DNA from: a virus
DNA length: 41,120 nucleotides
Strand: one strand, 5' to 3'
IMG/VR virus record: IMGVR_UViG_3300038701_003007
Span: 1-41,120 of that record
This document shows, piece after piece, positions 4,270 through 41,120 of the stretch (the first letter of the stretch is position 1; each line of letters starts with the position of its first letter). The notes beneath the pieces were generated by a model. It was given only the letters and a program-made list of their open reading frames with translations, was not told the origin of the DNA and searched no databases. The position numbers and the translations under genes were made by a program.

Positions 4270-4536
4270 ATGAAAAACACAAAAAAAATTCTTGCTACTT
4301 ACAAAGCAGAGGTTTCTACAAAGAAAACTATAAAAATAACAATGCCTAAATATAGGGCTGGTCAAGAAATTGTCCTAAACTTACAAGAGCATTACGGAGC
4401 TTCTACTTGTCACCCATTTACAGTTTCTGTTACATCAGGTAAATATTGCTACGACTATAAATTTTGGAGGTATTACTTCACAGGTCTTGATGTATATCTA
4501 TCAGAAGAATACCTTGATAAGAATATTTTAAAATAG
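4270..4536 (+). CDS. Hypothetical protein (88 aa)
   Basis: A basic N-terminus is followed by a region rich in beta-forming and aromatic residues (YCYDYKFWRYYF). No membrane helix or known motif is visible. It is the last gene before a new promoter, whose -35 region begins two bases after this gene's TAG stop. Confidence 0.55.
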   Translation: MKNTKKILATYKAEVSTKKTIKITMPKYRAGQEIVLNLQEHYGASTCHPFTVSVTSGKYCYDYKFWRYYFTGLDVYLSEEYLDKNILK

Positions 4537-4538
4537 AC

Positions 4539-4567
4539 TTGCACTCGTGAATTTCGTATGTTAGTAT
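4539..4567 (+). promoter_or_regulatory. Sigma70-like promoter, cassette copy A
   Basis: TTGCAC and TAGTAT are separated by 17 bp, with an extended -10 TG. The spacer contains TTTCGTATGTTA, shared with the promoters at 39533 and 40554. The element begins at the stop codon of the previous gene (AATAGACTTG), exactly as at the other two. It drives 4593-5432. Confidence 0.75.
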
Positions 4568-4592
4568 AATTTCGTCATTTAATAACTATGCC

Positions 4593-4784
4593 ATGAATAA
4601 GCAAAACACACACCGTCGAATTATGCACGAAAAAGTAAATCGTGTACCAGACAGAAAAGAGCTATTACAAAACAAAATAAATCTTGAGATCAAAAGATCG
4701 AGTCAATTTATTCCACCTGTAATAAAAAATACACTTGATATAAATCTTGATAATATAAATAAACTTTTACTACTTAAAATCTAA
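4593..4784 (+). CDS. Basic hypothetical protein (63 aa)
   Basis: First gene after the cassette A promoter. It is highly basic, with an N-terminus rich in H, R and K (KQNTHRRIMHEKVNR) and a C-terminal helix of alternating N, L and I residues. Nucleic-acid binding is possible from charge alone. The leader has TTTAATAACTATGCC rather than the CTTAACCACTA motif. Confidence 0.55.
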   Translation: MNKQNTHRRIMHEKVNRVPDRKELLQNKINLEIKRSSQFIPPVIKNTLDINLDNINKLLLLKI

Positions 4785-4993: not shown

Positions 4994-5006
4994 CTTAACC
5001 ACTAAG
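4994..5006 (+). promoter_or_regulatory. Leader motif CTTAACCACTAAG before the HD gene
   Basis: An exact 13-base copy of the motif lies directly against the ATG at 5007. It is fully complementary to the 5' part of the proposed small RNA at 39044-39111. The outer CTTA and TAAG could also pair around an ACCAC loop. Confidence 0.6.
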
Positions 5007-5432
5007 ATGATACAATATAACGATAGAATAATGTCGGCTATTGCATTTGGAGCACAAGCACACGGAAAAACACTTGATGATGGAGGAAATAATTATTTTC
5101 TTGCTCATTGTCTAAAAGTTGGAGAAGCTCTTATGGTGCTTACTCACAATGAAGATGTTATAATTGCTGGAATACTTCATGATACGATTGAAGATACAGA
5201 AACCACGTATGATGATATTTCTAAAGAATTTGGTATCACAGTTGCTAACCTTGTAAAAGAAGTTACCCATGTTGGTAATAAGAAGGAAGGATACAGCTTT
5301 CCAAACCTAAAAACACCAGAAGGAGTTTTAATTAAACTTATTGATCGAGGATCTAACATATCACGAATGGATTGCTGGAATAAAAAAAGACAGCAAAGAT
5401 ACATAAAAAAGACTTGCTTTTGGAATAAATAA
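5007..5432 (+). CDS. Small HD-domain alarmone hydrolase (SpoT/MESH1-like)
   Basis: The 141-residue protein matches the (p)ppGpp hydrolase fold of SpoT and MESH1: H34, the H58-D59 pair in ILHDTIEDT, E62-D63, and D113 in LIDRGSN, spaced as in the metal-binding set of the family. It would remove the 3' pyrophosphate from ppGpp or related nucleotides. It ends soon after the last metal ligand and is shorter than MESH1 (about 180 residues), so it is minimal or truncated at the C-terminus. In a phage it could quench the stringent response or neutralise an alarmone-type defence (toxSAS). It is the last gene of the rightward block and has the exact leader motif against its start. Confidence 0.75.
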   Translation: MIQYNDRIMSAIAFGAQAHGKTLDDGGNNYFLAHCLKVGEALMVLTHNEDVIIAGILHDTIEDTETTYDDISKEFGITVANLVKEVTHVGNKKEGYSFPNLKTPEGVLIKLIDRGSNISRMDCWNKKRQQRYIKKTCFWNK

Positions 5433-13597: not shown

Positions 13598-13866
13598 TAT
13601 TTGAATTCTTTATTAAATTTTTTAAATGCTTTTAGATCTGGTGTCTGTGGTTCTCCTTGCTGTAAGTGCTTTATTTCCTTCCCTGCTTCGAATGTCATGA
13701 CGTCTGATAATGATCTGTAATATGTAAAGAATATTTCTGCATCCATGTTCATAACTTCTGTGAAGTTGAAAGCCCCATTATATCCTCTTAGAAATTGTGA
13801 AACCATGAATTCTAAAACTTCGGCTTGCTTATCATCTCTAAAATCCCCCTTCTTCTTTTTTTTTAT
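13597..13866 (-). CDS. Tail assembly chaperone, -1 frameshift extension (gpT part)
   Basis: This frame has no start of its own at its beginning but is open from the slippery A run to its stop, giving an 89-residue extension (IKKKKKGDFRDDKQAEVLEF and on) to the upstream chaperone. The fused product is about 193 residues. In siphoviruses the short and frameshifted chaperones wrap the tape measure before tail tube assembly, and the tape measure gene starts exactly at this stop, as expected. Confidence 0.85.
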   Translation of the reverse strand: MKKKKKGDFRDDKQAEVLEFMVSQFLRGYNGAFNFTEVMNMDAEIFFTYYRSLSDVMTFEAGKEIKHLQQGEPQTPDLKAFKKFNKEFK

Positions 13867-14177
13867 TTTTTTTTAACCTCTTCTTTTACTTGATCTCCTG
13901 TTCCAATAATCCATTCCATCAATTTCATTGCTGCATGGATTTCTAAGGTATCAAGTTCTTTCTTATCAAAATCTTCGTTTTCAAGTAGTATAATATCTCC
14001 GACAACGTCCATTCCCTTTATGATTTTTTCATTCATAACCCCTTCTTTGTCTTGGAAAATTTTTGTAATTTTTATAAGTAATGCCAGAGGCACTGCAGAT
14101 ACTTCATAAGTTTTTCCGTTGATGTGAAGCTCTGATGGCTGAGATTTCAGCTTGTCTAAGTTTAAAGGCTTTCGCAT
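13863..14177 (-). CDS. Tail assembly chaperone (gpG-like)
   Basis: 104-residue protein, beta-strand N-terminus (LHINGKTYEVSAVPLALLIKI) and helical C-terminus, ending VKEEVKKK just at the A run. Its size, position between major tail protein and tape measure, and the slippery site identify it as the unshifted chaperone. The leader carries a variant of the CTTAACCACTA motif (TTAATCACTA). Confidence 0.85.
   Translation of the reverse strand: MRKPLNLDKLKSQPSELHINGKTYEVSAVPLALLIKITKIFQDKEGVMNEKIIKGMDVVGDIILLENEDFDKKELDTLEIHAAMKLMEWIIGTGDQVKEEVKKK
13866..13872 (-). other. Programmed -1 frameshift site A-AAA-AAA
   Basis: On the coding strand the order is GTT, nine A, T, nine A. The heptamer A-AAA-AAA sits immediately before the TAA stop in the zero frame. 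A -1 slip moves ribosomes into the 89-codon open frame that ends at the tape measure start. A second A9 run follows the stop. Confidence 0.82.
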
Positions 14178-31621: not shown

Positions 31622-32866
31622 TCACATTTTTTCTGCCTTGTCTCCTGTGAGCTCCTCCCATCTCTTAATGATTACGTCTGCGTACACTGGGTCGTACTCC
31701 ATAGTAAACGACTTACGCCCATTGAATTGGCACGCTATCATTGTTGATCCTGATCTTCCGAATAAATCAAGCACGTTATCTCCTCTCTGTGATGAGTTCT
31801 CTACCATCTTTGATACCAGCTCTACTGGTTTCATTGTAGGGTGTACGTCGTTCCTTGCTGGCTTGTCTGCGTGTATTATGCTTGCCTGGTAGTTTTCTTG
31901 TAATTGAATAAGTATTTTTAGAAGCTCTTCTTTCTTCATATCTGTAAGTTCTTTTCCCATTTCTTTTTCAAAAACAGTAGAACTAGTGAAGTCCTGACAA
32001 AAGTAATGAGCCCCTCCGTCTTTCCAACCGTAAAGGATAGGCTCGTGCTTCCAGTTGTAGTCTTGTCGCGATAATGCGAACTGACTCTTTACCCATACGA
32101 GGCACTGTCTTGTAGTAAGTCCTGCTTGTGTGGCTGCATTCTGGAAGTTTATCCGTTCTCCGTCTGCATGGGCAATATAAAAACACGCCCCTTTCTTCAT
32201 TGTCATAGCGGCGTTATCCATGGCTTTCTTCAAGAACTCAAAAAATTCCTTATCCCCCATGTCGTCGTTCTCAATCTTCATCCCGTCTGTTCCTTCGTAT
32301 GCTACGTTGTACGGCGGGTCTGTCCATAAAAGGTCAATCTTATTCTCTCCTACAAGCTTCTCTACGTCTTCTTTGCTCGTGCTGTCTCCACACATCAAAT
32401 AGTGATCTCCTAACTTAAATCTATCCCCTCGCTGTGTCTTGGCAACCTTTGGAGCGTCTGGGACCTCGTTTTTTTGCTCGTCACTTGGCTCCTCTTCGTC
32501 TTCAATCTGTACAAGGTCTATAAACTCCTCTTGAAGATCTGTGAGGTCTGTAAGCTCAAATTTAAGCATTTCTATATCCCACTCGCTTTCGTTTGTCCTG
32601 TTGTCCATAATTCTGTATGCACGGATTTGATCTTCTAAAAGGTTTTCTACCATGATACACGGTGCATCCTCCTTCCCCAGATGCCTCAATGCTTCGTAAC
32701 GACCATGCCCTGCTATAATGTTCTTCTCACTGTCTATAACGATTGGCTGTAAGAATCCATACTCCTCGATACTGTCTGCGATCTTTTGTATTTGGTCTTT
32801 CGGATGTTTCTTTGTGTTCTTTGCGTAAGGCAAGAGCTCCACAAGAGGAAAAGTTTTGATTTCCAT
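31622..32866 (-). CDS. ParB-like domain plus N6-adenine DNA methyltransferase
   Basis: 414 residues. The first 95 match the ParB/sulfiredoxin-like domain (VELLPYAKNTKKHP, IIAGHGRYEALRHLG) often fused to phage methyltransferases. Then come DPPY (183-186), HEPILYGWK and the SAM loop DLFGRSGST (367-375), the beta-class order of N6-adenine or N4-cytosine enzymes, with DPPY favouring adenine. There is no partner endonuclease, so it is a solitary enzyme, perhaps for protection from host restriction. The SAM synthetase gene follows. Confidence 0.92.
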   Translation of the reverse strand: MEIKTFPLVELLPYAKNTKKHPKDQIQKIADSIEEYGFLQPIVIDSEKNIIAGHGRYEALRHLGKEDAPCIMVENLLEDQIRAYRIMDNRTNESEWDIEMLKFELTDLTDLQEEFIDLVQIEDEEEPSDEQKNEVPDAPKVAKTQRGDRFKLGDHYLMCGDSTSKEDVEKLVGENKIDLLWTDPPYNVAYEGTDGMKIENDDMGDKEFFEFLKKAMDNAAMTMKKGACFYIAHADGERINFQNAATQAGLTTRQCLVWVKSQFALSRQDYNWKHEPILYGWKDGGAHYFCQDFTSSTVFEKEMGKELTDMKKEELLKILIQLQENYQASIIHADKPARNDVHPTMKPVELVSKMVENSSQRGDNVLDLFGRSGSTMIACQFNGRKSFTMEYDPVYADVIIKRWEELTGDKAEKM

Positions 32867-34541: not shown

Positions 34542-34552
34542 TAGTGGTTAAG
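34542..34552 (-). promoter_or_regulatory. Leader motif CTTAACCACTA before 34534 gene
   Basis: Exact 11-base copy on the coding strand, between the structured leader RNA and the start codon. Confidence 0.6.
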
Positions 34553-36625: not shown

Positions 36626-36636
36626 TAGTGGTTAAG
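36626..36636 (-). promoter_or_regulatory. Leader motif CTTAACCACTA before 36621 gene
   Basis: Exact 11-base copy on the coding strand, ten bases downstream of a TTGCAA/TATAAT promoter and four bases before the ATG. Confidence 0.6.
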
Positions 36637-38090: not shown

Positions 38091-38855
38091 TTAAATATTA
38101 TGTTTTTTCTTCAATTCTAATAATTTACTTTTAGTAAAAAACTTTATACCTTTTGGCATTATTTCTACTCTCGGATAATCGACACCATAAGGATTATGCT
38201 TTGCAAGCCTTGTATTCCATATAACATTAAAGTATCCCTTGTTTATATATGTCTGAAATGGCCTGTTATGGTTGTCGTTTCCTTTATAAAAGTATTTAGC
38301 AGCTCTGAGTATCCTGAAAACCGTAGTCCTTCCTAGACCGTCTCCTAATGTATGACAGAAGTCGTCAAATCTCATGCTTTTATCTTTGCTTTTTATAAAA
38401 TCCTCACCAATTTCTGCAAGAGGAGACTGTAAAGCCAGAAGTTCTTCTTGTTTTTTTACTATGACCTTGATACTATTATTGTGTTTTGTTGCTGATAATA
38501 GCTGTTCTAGTGCTTCTTCATAGTTTTGAGGGAGTGCTTGGATTTGATTTCGTGCCTTTTTCTCAACTTCTATAAAATACTTTCGAATCTTTTTCCCCTG
38601 GTCGTTGTTTTCTAACATTGCCAGCTCTTTTGCCATGTGGATTGTTACCACGTATTCTGTACTTGGTCTTCCTCCGATACTTTCGCTCAAAAATGAGCTA
38701 AAGTCTGAACCGTCCACAAAATCATATTTCTTTATTTTTCTTTTGATCCAATCCTTGAATTCAGTTTTTACTTCAAGGTTCCCGTGTAGTTGCCTGGCAT
38801 CCACTGCCTGCAGATTTTCGTCGCCGATGATGTGTTTTGTTATCTGTATATTCAT
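38091..38855 (-). CDS. Antirepressor (AntA/AntB plus KilA-C)
   Basis: 254 residues. The N-terminal half has the AntA/AntB signature (VDARQLHGNLEVKTEFKDWI, then KKYDFVDGSDF and HMAKELAMLENNDQGKKIRK). The C-terminal half is a KilA-C-like domain (LGRTTVFRILRAAKYF, PYGVDYPRVEIMPKG). Such proteins lift repression in lambdoid-type switches. No CI-like repressor is obvious, so the target may be host-encoded or an unrecognised phage protein. It is the first gene of the leftward block, next to an operator-like region. Confidence 0.88.
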   Translation of the reverse strand: MNIQITKHIIGDENLQAVDARQLHGNLEVKTEFKDWIKRKIKKYDFVDGSDFSSFLSESIGGRPSTEYVVTIHMAKELAMLENNDQGKKIRKYFIEVEKKARNQIQALPQNYEEALEQLLSATKHNNSIKVIVKKQEELLALQSPLAEIGEDFIKSKDKSMRFDDFCHTLGDGLGRTTVFRILRAAKYFYKGNDNHNRPFQTYINKGYFNVIWNTRLAKHNPYGVDYPRVEIMPKGIKFFTKSKLLELKKKHNI

Positions 38856-38917
38856 ATAAGAATATTAAAAAATAAAATTAAGCATACAAAAAAATATACT
38901 TTGATGGAAGCAGTAGG

Positions 38918-39007
38918 CGCATAAGTAAATCCACAACATGAAAAAACTTCTACTGTTCCCGTCAAAATATATTTGAAAAACCATATTATGTATTTTTTAC
39001 TTATGCG
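38918..39007. repeat. 12-bp perfect inverted repeat, likely operators
   Basis: CGCATAAGTAAA at 38918-38929 and TTTACTTATGCG at 38996-39007 are separated by 66 bases. The right arm lies within the spacer of the leftward promoter, so a protein bound there would block it. The arms could also form a hairpin in RNA. Confidence 0.7.
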
Positions 39008-39014
39008 ACAGCAA
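38985..39014 (-). promoter_or_regulatory. Leftward early promoter (antirepressor, replication)
   Basis: TTGCTG and CATAAT, 18 bp apart on the minus strand. The inverted-repeat arm at 38996-39007 lies between the two hexamers. Confidence 0.55.
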
Positions 39015-39043
39015 TATAACAAATATTGGAAAATATAGCAACT

Positions 39044-39082
39044 AAAAAACCGCCATATTCGATTCTAGAGTCGAACTGGCGG
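39044..39082 (-). terminator. Intrinsic terminator of the small RNA
   Basis: On the minus strand CCGCCA and TGGCGG enclose an inner TTCGA/TCGAA stem, followed at once by six T. On the plus strand no T tract follows, so termination is leftward only. Confidence 0.82.
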
Positions 39083-39111
39083 AATATCATCGCTTAACCA
39101 CTAAGAAAAGC
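39044..39111 (-). ncRNA. Putative antisense small RNA (about 68 nt) against phage leaders
   Basis: A promoter on the minus strand (39118-39145) would start a transcript near 39111 that runs GCUUUUCUUAGUGGUUAAG, then a short linker, then the intrinsic terminator ending at 39044. The 13 bases CUUAGUGGUUAAG (39093-39105) are the exact complement of CTTAACCACTAAG found against the starts at 5007 and 39588. The inner 11 bases also match leaders at 40613, 34534 and 36621. No reading frame is present. An alternative is that 39093-39105 is an unused leader copy on the plus strand, preceded by TATCAT. Confidence 0.6.
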
Positions 39112-39117
39112 AAAAAC

Positions 39118-39145
39118 ACTATAACACATGTAATATAAAAAACAA
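39118..39145 (-). promoter_or_regulatory. Promoter of the small RNA
   Basis: TTGTTT and TATAGT, 16 bp apart on the minus strand, with extended -10 TGT as in the rightward cassettes. It is back to back with the promoter at 39157, 11 bases away. Confidence 0.65.
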
Positions 39146-39156
39146 ATACTTTTAAC

Positions 39157-39185
39157 TTGATATTGTTGCTTTTGTGTGTTAGTAT
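39157..39185 (+). promoter_or_regulatory. Rightward early promoter
   Basis: TTGATA and TAGTAT, 17 bp apart, with extended -10 TG. Downstream TTGTTTCGTATTTAC matches the region after promoter C at 40554. A leader TTTAACCACTT follows before the ATG at 39217. Confidence 0.75.
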
Positions 39186-39201
39186 TGTTTCGTATTTACT
39201 C

Positions 39202-39211
39202 TTTAACCACT
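39202..39211 (+). promoter_or_regulatory. Leader motif variant TTTAACCACT before 39217 gene
   Basis: Differs from the consensus at the first and last bases of the 11-mer, with nine core bases kept. It lies five bases before the ATG. Confidence 0.5.
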
Positions 39212-39216
39212 TGATT

Positions 39217-39387
39217 ATGCAGAAATTTATGCAAATAAATACAAAGAAACACGGTAGGCTTTCAATTATTGGAGACCCCATTGAACTCGAACAGCTTTTA
39301 TACAGTATGGGATTTTTTGAATTTATTGACAAAATGTGTTCACAGGGACTTGTAAGAAAAAATGGACAAACTTTACAAAAATTTTAA
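39217..39387 (+). CDS. Small hypothetical protein (56 aa), first rightward early gene
   Basis: Start chosen at MQKFMQINTKKHGR, since promoter and leader motif end just before it; the longer open frame upstream overlaps the promoter. The protein has GDPIELEQLLYSMGFFEF in the middle. Being first in the early block next to the control region, it may act on the host. No family recognised. Confidence 0.62.
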   Translation: MQKFMQINTKKHGRLSIIGDPIELEQLLYSMGFFEFIDKMCSQGLVRKNGQTLQKF

Positions 39388-39398
39388 TATACACCGAC

Positions 39399-39530
39399 AT
39401 GAAAAACTTTATAAAATACATTTTTCGGCATTATAATATTGAGCAGATTTTATATTTAACTATTTTCTTCTTTGTATTACTAGCACTTTTTATCGCGACA
39501 ACTTACTTTATCTTTTCTTTTTTAAAATAG
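39399..39530 (+). CDS. 43-residue single-span membrane protein
   Basis: MKNFIKYIFRHYNIEQ is followed by one hydrophobic helix (LYLTIFFFVLLALFIATTYF). It ends in AAATAG, where the next promoter cassette begins. No family recognised. Confidence 0.6.
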   Translation: MKNFIKYIFRHYNIEQILYLTIFFFVLLALFIATTYFIFSFLK

Positions 39531-39532
39531 AC

Positions 39533-39561
39533 TTGATTTCGTATATTTCGTATGTTATCAT
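39533..39561 (+). promoter_or_regulatory. Promoter cassette copy B
   Basis: TTGATT and TATCAT, 17 bp apart, with extended -10 TG and the TTTCGTATGTTA spacer element shared with copies A and C. Drives the 47-aa gene and the RecT-like gene. Confidence 0.8.
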
Positions 39562-39570
39562 TATTTTGAA

Positions 39571-39583
39571 CTTAACCACTAAG
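39571..39583 (+). promoter_or_regulatory. Leader motif CTTAACCACTAAG before 39588 gene
   Basis: Exact 13-base copy ending four bases before the ATG, matching the proposed small RNA in full. Confidence 0.62.
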
Positions 39584-39587
39584 CACT

Positions 39588-39731
39588 ATGTATAGCCAAA
39601 CACCCACTTTCGATAACCCCTTTGCACAAGAACCAGATGCAAAAGAGGAGTTCTTTGAAATGGAAAGACTTCAACAAGAGGAGGCTATTCAGTATGAGCG
39701 AATGGATATGTTTGAAGATTATAATTCTTAA
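39588..39731 (+). CDS. Small acidic protein before RecT-like gene (47 aa)
   Basis: MYSQTPTFDNPFAQEPDAKE continues into a strongly acidic helix (ERLQQEEAIQYERMDMFED). About one third of its residues are D or E. Promoter B and the leader motif lie just upstream, so it is likely real. It could mimic DNA or bind a recombination or host nuclease protein; charge alone supports this. Confidence 0.65.
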   Translation: MYSQTPTFDNPFAQEPDAKEEFFEMERLQQEEAIQYERMDMFEDYNS

Positions 39732-39741
39732 TTAAAAAAAT

Positions 39742-40551
39742 ATGTCTAATTTATGCGTACTCTCAAAAAAAGAGAGATTCGAGCTTACTCCTATGGTCAC
39801 AGAGCTTATGAGCTCAGGAGCGGTACCAAAGGGTCTTGCAAATAAAGAGCAGGTATGGATTGCAATACAACGAGGAAAAGAGCTAGGAATGCCGCCTGTG
39901 AAGTCTCTACAGTGTCTTTACTTTGTTAATGGAACATTGACAATGTGGGGATCAGAAGTAATCGCACGTCTAAAAAGAAGCGGATACAAGGTTCTTTGGA
40001 AAGAAGTAACTGCCGATAAAGTTTCTTTAGTATTACGAGATCCTGACGGTGATGAACACCCAGAGGAGTACACAATGGAAGAGGCAAAGGCTGGGCCAGC
40101 CTCTTGTTACAATAAATATACAAAGACAACTGATGTAAAAGACACTTACAAAAAATATCCAAAAAACATGCTTCGGTATAAGTGTATCGGTAATGCGATT
40201 CGTTTCTTTTGCCCTGAGGTTCTTGACGGTATCTATATCACGGAAGAAATGGACGACAAAACAGAGACAATTGAAAAGGCAGAAACCCTGGAAGGAAAAT
40301 TTTCCGCAAGAAAAGCCGAGGATGATTCTGAGGTGATTGTAGACGATGTGATTGATGCTGAGGTCGTAGAAGTAGAAAATAACGAATCTTTCGAGGAAAT
40401 TATAAAAAATGTAGATGAAGCTACTACTATCGAATCTCTAGCAGATGTTGCAAAAAAAGTGATGCAAACAAATTTTTCACCAGAACACACTGAGGCTTTT
40501 AAAGAAGTTTATAAGATCAAATATGATCAATTAAACTATGAGAAAAAATAG
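39742..40551 (+). CDS. RecT-like single-strand annealing protein
   Basis: 269 residues. The opening SSGAVPKGLANKEQVWIAIQ, then GKELGMPPVKSLQCLYFVNG and GSEVIARLKRSGYKVLWKE, and MLRYKCIGNAIRFFCPEVL match the RecT/Redbeta-type annealing fold of phages. The C-terminal third is acidic and then helical (TNFSPEHTEAFKEVYKI). It would anneal DNA resected by the downstream nuclease-motor. It shares promoter B with the acidic gene. Confidence 0.82.
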   Translation: MSNLCVLSKKERFELTPMVTELMSSGAVPKGLANKEQVWIAIQRGKELGMPPVKSLQCLYFVNGTLTMWGSEVIARLKRSGYKVLWKEVTADKVSLVLRDPDGDEHPEEYTMEEAKAGPASCYNKYTKTTDVKDTYKKYPKNMLRYKCIGNAIRFFCPEVLDGIYITEEMDDKTETIEKAETLEGKFSARKAEDDSEVIVDDVIDAEVVEVENNESFEEIIKNVDEATTIESLADVAKKVMQTNFSPEHTEAFKEVYKIKYDQLNYEKK

Positions 40552-40553
40552 AC

Positions 40554-40582
40554 TTGTGTTTGTGTATTTCGTATGTTATCAT
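40554..40582 (+). promoter_or_regulatory. Promoter cassette copy C
   Basis: TTGTGT and TATCAT, 17 bp apart, with the TTTCGTATGTTA element and extended -10 TG. It begins two bases after the RecT-like stop codon and drives the nuclease-motor operon. Confidence 0.78.
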
Positions 40583-40598
40583 TGTTTCGTATTTACAC

Positions 40599-40609
40599 CT
40601 TAACCACTA
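40599..40609 (+). promoter_or_regulatory. Leader motif CTTAACCACTA before nuclease-motor gene
   Basis: Exact 11-base copy ending three bases before the ATG at 40613. Confidence 0.62.
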
Positions 40610-40612
40610 TGT

Positions 40613-41120
40613 ATGAAGATAAATAAATATGCTCTGCTTAATGCAGACCAGTTAGACCACCATTTAAGTAACTTCATTGTCGACAGGTTTTCTCACTCAT
40701 CACTTGATAAATTCAATACAAATCAACTGAATTTCTATAAAGAGTATGTGGAAAAAGATTACAGCGGACAACGAGGAATGAGTGCAATTGTCGGGAGTGC
40801 TTTCCACTCGGCAATGCAACAATGGGCAGAATCAAAAGAACCTATGGGGTTTGAAGAAATATGCGATGCATGTTTCAAATATATTGACGAATATCCTGTT
40901 CAAAATATAAAACTTGGAAAGACTTATGAAAAAAAAGGGATCGAGGCTTTAATGGGAGATGCGTATAAAAAAGTATCGGCTCTTGTTACTGCTTTTATTT
41001 CTGAGGAGGAAATGATGAAAAATCTTGTAAAAGAATCTATAGGGTGTGAGTTTGGAACACAATCTTTCCCGAGACTTAATTCTCTGGATTACGACGTACC
41101 ACTTCCTCTCAAGTCTTCCC
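40613..41120 (+). CDS. RecB-type nuclease fused to FtsK-type DNA translocase (5' part)
   Basis: Start of the 675-residue protein described at 3-1649. I choose the ATG at 40613 because the ATG at 40609 gives a stop after a few codons. This part contains SHSSLDKFNTNQLNFYKEYV and GSAFHSAMQQWAE (GxxxH at 61-65), the opening of the RecB/Cas4-type nuclease domain. The reading frame enters the 126-base overlap and continues at base 3 of the window. The last three bases of the window (CCC) disagree with the other copy and are probably an assembly end error. Confidence 0.85.
   Translation, partial: MKINKYALLNADQLDHHLSNFIVDRFSHSSLDKFNTNQLNFYKEYVEKDYSGQRGMSAIVGSAFHSAMQQWAESKEPMGFEEICDACFKYIDEYPVQNIKLGKTYEKKGIEALMGDAYKKVSALVTAFISEEEMMKNLVKESIGCEFGTQSFPRLNSLDYDVPLPLKSS
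40992..41117. repeat. Right copy of terminal direct repeat (circular overlap)
   Basis: Exact copy of bases 1-126. The final CCC (41118-41120) does not match TTA at 127-129. Confidence 0.9.

Follow-up and report, generated by a model that had tools for sequence, protein, structure and literature searches.

A predicted compact transcription unit upstream of the antirepressor gene

On the minus strand of the window (the whole stretch of 41,120 nt that was analysed), a promoter, an antisense copy of a 13-nt leader element and a terminator lie within about 100 bases between 39145 and 39044, at the positions that a preliminary description had given for them. The promoter (39118-39145) consists of TTGTTT at 39145-39140, a 16-nt spacer, TG at 39126-39125 and TATAGT at 39123-39118. 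From a predicted first base, a G at 39111, it would produce a 68-nt antisense RNA (39044-39111, minus strand; predicted fold -21.3 kcal/mol). This RNA would carry the pairing segment CUUAGUGGUUAAG (39093-39105), which is the exact antisense of the element CTTAACCACTAAG, and would end in an intrinsic terminator (39044-39082) made of a CCGCCA...TGGCGG hairpin and a run of six T. At -16.1 kcal/mol, the hairpin at 39082-39050 with its T6 ranks first among the 154 hairpin-plus-T sites of the window, as against -15.9 kcal/mol for the best such site in 12 shuffled windows. The preliminary description had also stated that the unit contains no reading frame. This holds for ATG-started frames, none of which occurs within the 68 nt, but a mechanically called TTG-started ORF (39332-39087), itself without the start motif, overlaps the 5' end of the RNA. 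The same 5' end is predicted to fold as a GCUU/AAGC hairpin (-3.5 kcal/mol) partly occupying the seed. A tRNA or tRNA-derived element was considered as well (the antisense 13-mer resembles a D-arm) and rejected, with ARAGORN finding none and Rfam being negative.

The small-RNA promoter agrees with the plain sigma-70 consensus at only 8 of 12 positions, the extended -10 being present, and this low score explains its absence from a generic promoter scan. It does fit the pattern TTG-N16..18-TGTTAnnnT, which has exactly six sites in both strands of the window, all of them directly upstream of a feature: the rightward starts 4593, 39217, 39588 and 40613 have one each, and the remaining two lie before the antirepressor gene and before the small RNA. 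In all six a G, the expected first base, stands at position 7 after the -10. Random sequence contains a mean of 3.2 such sites, which are scattered. Since the pattern was built from some of the six sites themselves, recovering those sites is expected; the informative part of the scan is that there are zero matches elsewhere, inside genes. The six features are thus assigned putative phage-type promoters by resemblance. Four alike 70-bp promoter-plus-leader copies serve rightward genes (4530-4599, 39148-39217, 39524-39593 and 40545-40614), with 60-81% identity to the reference copy.

The combination of a phage-type promoter with the strongest hairpin-plus-T of the window argues for a compact independent transcription unit, as had been proposed. 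The segment 39145-39044 is likely to be a real minus-strand transcript, and a multi-target regulator is a plausible role for it.

Directly downstream on the same strand lies the antirepressor gene (38091-38855), the product of which has an AntA/AntB domain (PF08346, E 1.5e-24) and a KilA-C domain (PF03374, E 6.8e-12) and a PHROG assignment as Ant. The small-RNA terminator is located about 190 bp upstream of this gene. A putative antirepressor promoter of the same type as that of the small RNA (39013-39041, minus strand) starts right behind the terminator T-run.

Complementarity to gene leaders

Besides its antisense copy at 39093-39105, the exact 13-mer CTTAACCACTAAG is found in the sense orientation at 4994-5006 and 39571-39583, that is, before the starts at 5007 and 39588 where it had been reported. 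If up to two mismatches are allowed, the count rises to 6 sites, with an expectation of 0.97, and 0 of 100 shuffles gave as many. The claim that a core 11-mer precedes three more starts on both strands proved correct too: CTTAACCACTA lies upstream of 40613 (plus strand), 36621 and 34534 (both minus strand). A 9-mer, TTAACCACT, lies upstream of a sixth start, 39217 (plus strand).

Outside the unit itself, the genome is exactly complementary to the 68-mer over at least 11 nt only in the leaders of five genes. The longest, 14 nt including the A of the ATG, is with the leader of the HD-domain gene 5007 (element at 4994-5006, plus strand), which has no good promoter just upstream. The leader of 39588, the first gene of the RecT operon, is complementary over 13 nt (39571-39583, plus strand; promoter 39533-39561). 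Three leaders have 11 nt each: that of 40613, a gene for 675 aa with an FtsK/SpoIIIE-like C-terminal part (40599-40609, plus strand; promoter 40554-40582), and those of the small genes 36621 (36626-36636, minus strand; promoter TTGCAA-16-TATAAT) and 34534 (34542-34552, minus strand). The element before 39217 is weaker (39203-39211, plus strand; promoter 39157-39185), with 9 nt of exact complement. The predicted leaders of 39217, 39588 and 40613 comprise some 20-25 nt from the first base, which places the element near the mRNA 5' end.

When 58 leaders were compared using RNAduplex, the six that contain TTAACCACT were all within the best eight energies, and the other two of these eight have the form TAATCACT, which is compatible with G-U pairing. 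When the 5' segment was shuffled, an energy as good as the sixth-best was obtained in just 1 of 200 cases. Cofolding of the small RNA with the six leaders gave gains of -8.3 to -15.4 kcal/mol. The complementarity is confined to the phage's own leaders, and the proposal that the phage's own genes are the targets gains support from this. The antirepressor leader does not behave as a target, its duplex energy being no better than that of shuffled RNA (137/300). The suggestion that pairing begins as a kissing interaction between CUUA/UAAG hairpins finds no support in the folding calculations, which make these hairpins unstable (+0.4 kcal/mol in the RNA and -0.2 kcal/mol in the targets).

A start-site element in place of Shine-Dalgarno sequences

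Shine-Dalgarno-like sequences precede none of the 58 gene starts. TTAA, on the other hand, is located exactly at -14 from the ATG in 18 of the 58 genes (1.27 expected), while in 2000 shuffles the maximum at any offset was 8 genes. In one relative with recoded TGA (L003), 10 of 13 genes have TTAA at -13 to -15. TTAA at -14 has the appearance of an element for non-SD translation initiation. Of this putative general element TTAACCACTA is a strong form, and TAATCACTATA, common to the leaders of 32866 and 14177, is another. In these two leaders (genes 31622-32866 and 13863-14177), TAATCACTATA stands just before the ATG, and pairing with the small RNA would be possible via G-U. The TTAA(-14) signal in candidate host chromosomes is weak and blurred and was set aside as evidence. 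The idea that the start element pairs with the 3' tail of the 16S rRNA was rejected, the complement of the element being found in 0 of the 50 Gracilibacteria-class tails read.

Rather than marking RNA targets specifically, the leader motif CTTAACCACTAAG represents a start-site element of the whole genome in its strongest form. Its recurrence before gene starts is therefore partly explained without any small RNA. Moreover, the plus-strand copy at 39093 might itself be a decayed or duplicated gene start, a leader without its gene, with the antisense reading being incidental. That the element is a start signal throughout the genome suits this origin, as does TATCAT in front of the copy, which also precedes the leader at 39571. 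However, TATCAT has no -35 ahead of it, and where a start codon would be expected further along the plus strand there is no ATG, GTG or TTG. Such a relic would also leave unexplained why a minus-strand phage-type promoter and the strongest terminator bracket the copy within about 100 bp, and we regard it as unlikely. What does call for an RNA is that an exact antisense copy stands with a phage-type promoter on one side and the best terminator on the other.

Another way to account for the motif is that CTTAACCACTAAG is a DNA operator at which a phage regulator binds near transcription starts, the small-RNA promoter simply having a flipped copy. The ends of the motif, CTTA and TAAG, are nearly palindromic, and relative to the predicted start the element lies at about +4 to +12 in three leaders with promoter patterns, the small RNA having it at +7. 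Yet its link to the start codon is closer than that to the promoter, and it belongs to the TTAA(-14) series seen in many genes. Its orientation towards the gene is identical in 6 of 6 leaders, gene 5007 has the element without a nearby promoter, and the antirepressor promoter lacks it. An operator appears quite improbable in view of these features.

The genome and its probable host

The virus record is complete-looking, and terminase, portal and tape measure genes identify a tailed phage. Positions 1-126 recur at 40992-41117, and this 126-nt repeat indicates that the genome is circular or terminally redundant, with about 41.0 kb. The phage uses the standard genetic code, TGA being the stop codon in 12 of 56 genes. 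In its nearest terminase relatives (61, 48 and 43% identity) TGA is a sense codon, and remoter terminase relatives with in-frame TGA sit in Gracilibacteria-class genomes. Gracilibacteria and Absconditabacteria read TGA as a sense codon. Judging from these two sets of terminase relatives, the host of the phage probably belongs in or near the class Gracilibacteria. Phages of these TGA-recoding bacteria with genes compatible with the standard code have been reported earlier (PMC10746230). One terminase-like gene with in-frame TGA (G116:C4:33048-34445; 522 bits) is on a 410-kb bacterial contig, with no obvious phage neighbours across the 40 kb read.

The preliminary description had raised the possibility of a host without Shine-Dalgarno initiation, and several observations agree with this. 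Besides the phage genes, the relatives likewise lack such sequences, and the 16S 3' tails of Gracilibacteria-class genomes (L037-L039, L065-L114) have an anti-Shine-Dalgarno core that is eroded in many cases (for example, GACTATCTCC, GACCACCATTCT and GAACATCTCC) and intact in some. The host lineage thus appears not to use Shine-Dalgarno sequences.

None of the three nearest phages has an exact TTAACCACT, but all three are fragments, so its absence from them proves nothing. Protein searches with RecT, terminase, tape measure, FtsK-like and Ant sequences yielded no closer relatives covering the early region, and the Ant matches that were checked belong to ordinary phages, most of them with many SD genes. 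Across viral contigs the pattern CTTAACCACTAAG-N4-ATG has 11 matches, about the chance number, with flanks that read as interior coding sequence. The product of 31622-32866 in the window is a 414-aa fusion of ParB-like and DNA methyltransferase parts.

A putative trans-acting antisense RNA

The explanation that we favour, with a probability of about 0.58, is that 39145-39044 (minus strand) is a free-standing gene for a 68-nt trans-acting antisense RNA that would block the non-SD start element of several early operons. Bases 7-19 of the small RNA would pair with the start-site element UUAACCACUA in five or more phage mRNAs that come from different promoters or operons. In these mRNAs the element stops 3-8 nt short of the AUG and is close to the mRNA 5' end wherever a promoter can be recognised. 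Pairing at this position would cover the ribosome landing site and repress translation in trans. Since phage antisense RNAs are also found near antirepressor genes elsewhere, the small RNA would probably serve to restrain the early operons (recombination and small proteins), either in lysogeny or as an early-to-late switch.

This reading is favoured by the promoter being among the six pattern sites, with the first-base G shared by all of them, and by the strongest terminator directly behind the antisense element. It is also in line with precedents of 68-77 nt, namely sar, c4 and OOP (PMC12197685), and with the adjoining AntA-type antirepressor gene. Weighing against it are the partly general nature of the leader motif, the 5' hairpin in the seed and the failure of the ant leader as a target. 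As far as its class is concerned, the candidate has the features of a phage trans-acting antisense sRNA that can be read from sequence, namely its own promoter, an intrinsic terminator, a short length and the lack of an ATG frame, and its seed is complementary, beyond chance, to the start regions of mRNAs from other loci.

Comparison with known phage antisense RNAs

The c4 RNA is encoded upstream of ant, and the P1 c4 RNA is processed out of a longer transcript. Lambda OOP, a cis-antisense of cII, is a short RNA with its own promoter and terminator, as the candidate would be; the candidate, by contrast, is predicted to act in trans, through 9-14 nt matches to several leaders. The c4 RNA of P1/P7 (77 nt) pairs in trans around the ribosome binding site of a phage mRNA and controls antirepressor synthesis, the phage-encoded sar RNA of P22 (68-69 nt) stops translation initiation of a phage mRNA, and OOP (77 nt), likewise encoded by its phage, is an antisense RNA that intervenes in the regulation of the phage itself (PMC12197685). 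In P4, the CI RNA is an antisense RNA of the phage immunity region that is made by processing of a longer leader transcript, pairs with short complementary phage RNA sequences and, via seqA and seqC, brings about the termination of transcription (PMC4825925). In the light of these examples (PMC12197685, PMC4825925), the statement that no phage small RNA of this kind had been described was too strong.

The candidate would work in the manner of these RNAs, and it resembles c4 (Rfam RF01695) in position too, both being upstream of an AntA-type antirepressor gene on the same strand. The RF01695 covariance model has no gathering match in the window, and no c4 match was found at E up to 10 in 38850-39230. 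While c4 represses ant itself, the candidate would act on several other operons and not on ant, and as far as the sequence indicates it has its own promoter and terminator. With sar it shares phage origin and a size of 68-69 nt, but sar blocks initiation by pairing with ant mRNA, whereas the partner of the candidate would be a short element that recurs in several leaders, that of ant not being among them. Like the P4 CI RNA, it is antisense to short sequences in the phage's own RNA; its pairing sites, however, lie at the start codons of separate transcripts, whereas the P4 RNA is processed and terminates transcription.

The processed RNAs of P1 and P4 lend some credit to yet another view of the unit, namely as a leader in which the antirepressor operon is attenuated, with the terminator stopping most transcripts before ant and read-through being regulated. 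The shared strand and the short distance between terminator and ant would fit such an arrangement. But ant has a same-type promoter of its own right behind the terminator, and attenuation gives no reason for the antisense 13-mer, which makes this view very unlikely. It is nevertheless compatible with a trans-acting antisense RNA, and both could hold together.

Phage RNAs silencing the phage's own genes are already known; what would be new and unusual here is the aim at an element common to several operons. To our knowledge, most phage antisense RNAs described to date have a single mRNA as their target. It is tempting, if still tentative, to go one step further and regard the candidate as an 'anti-start-site' RNA, which would recognise the non-SD element UUAACCACUA (and UUAAUCACUA via G-U). 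In a host lineage from which Shine-Dalgarno initiation has been lost, it would in this way silence all early starts of that class together. If true, an RNA against a start element common to several operons would amount to a one-molecule switch for a phage regulon. The candidate initiation element itself (TTAA at -14, TTAAYCACTA) is concrete and testable, and it comes from a phage whose host lineage apparently does without Shine-Dalgarno sequences. Both translation initiation and phage regulation in Gracilibacteria (CPR) are, as far as we know, almost unstudied.

The antirepressor leader (38892-39007) has a structure of its own, with two interleaved inverted repeats, one of 12 bp (38918-38929/38996-39007) and one of 25 nt with 84% identity (38892-38916/38950-38974), the latter followed by T7 on the minus strand. 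These repeats may form a pseudoknot or an attenuator, or they may be operators.
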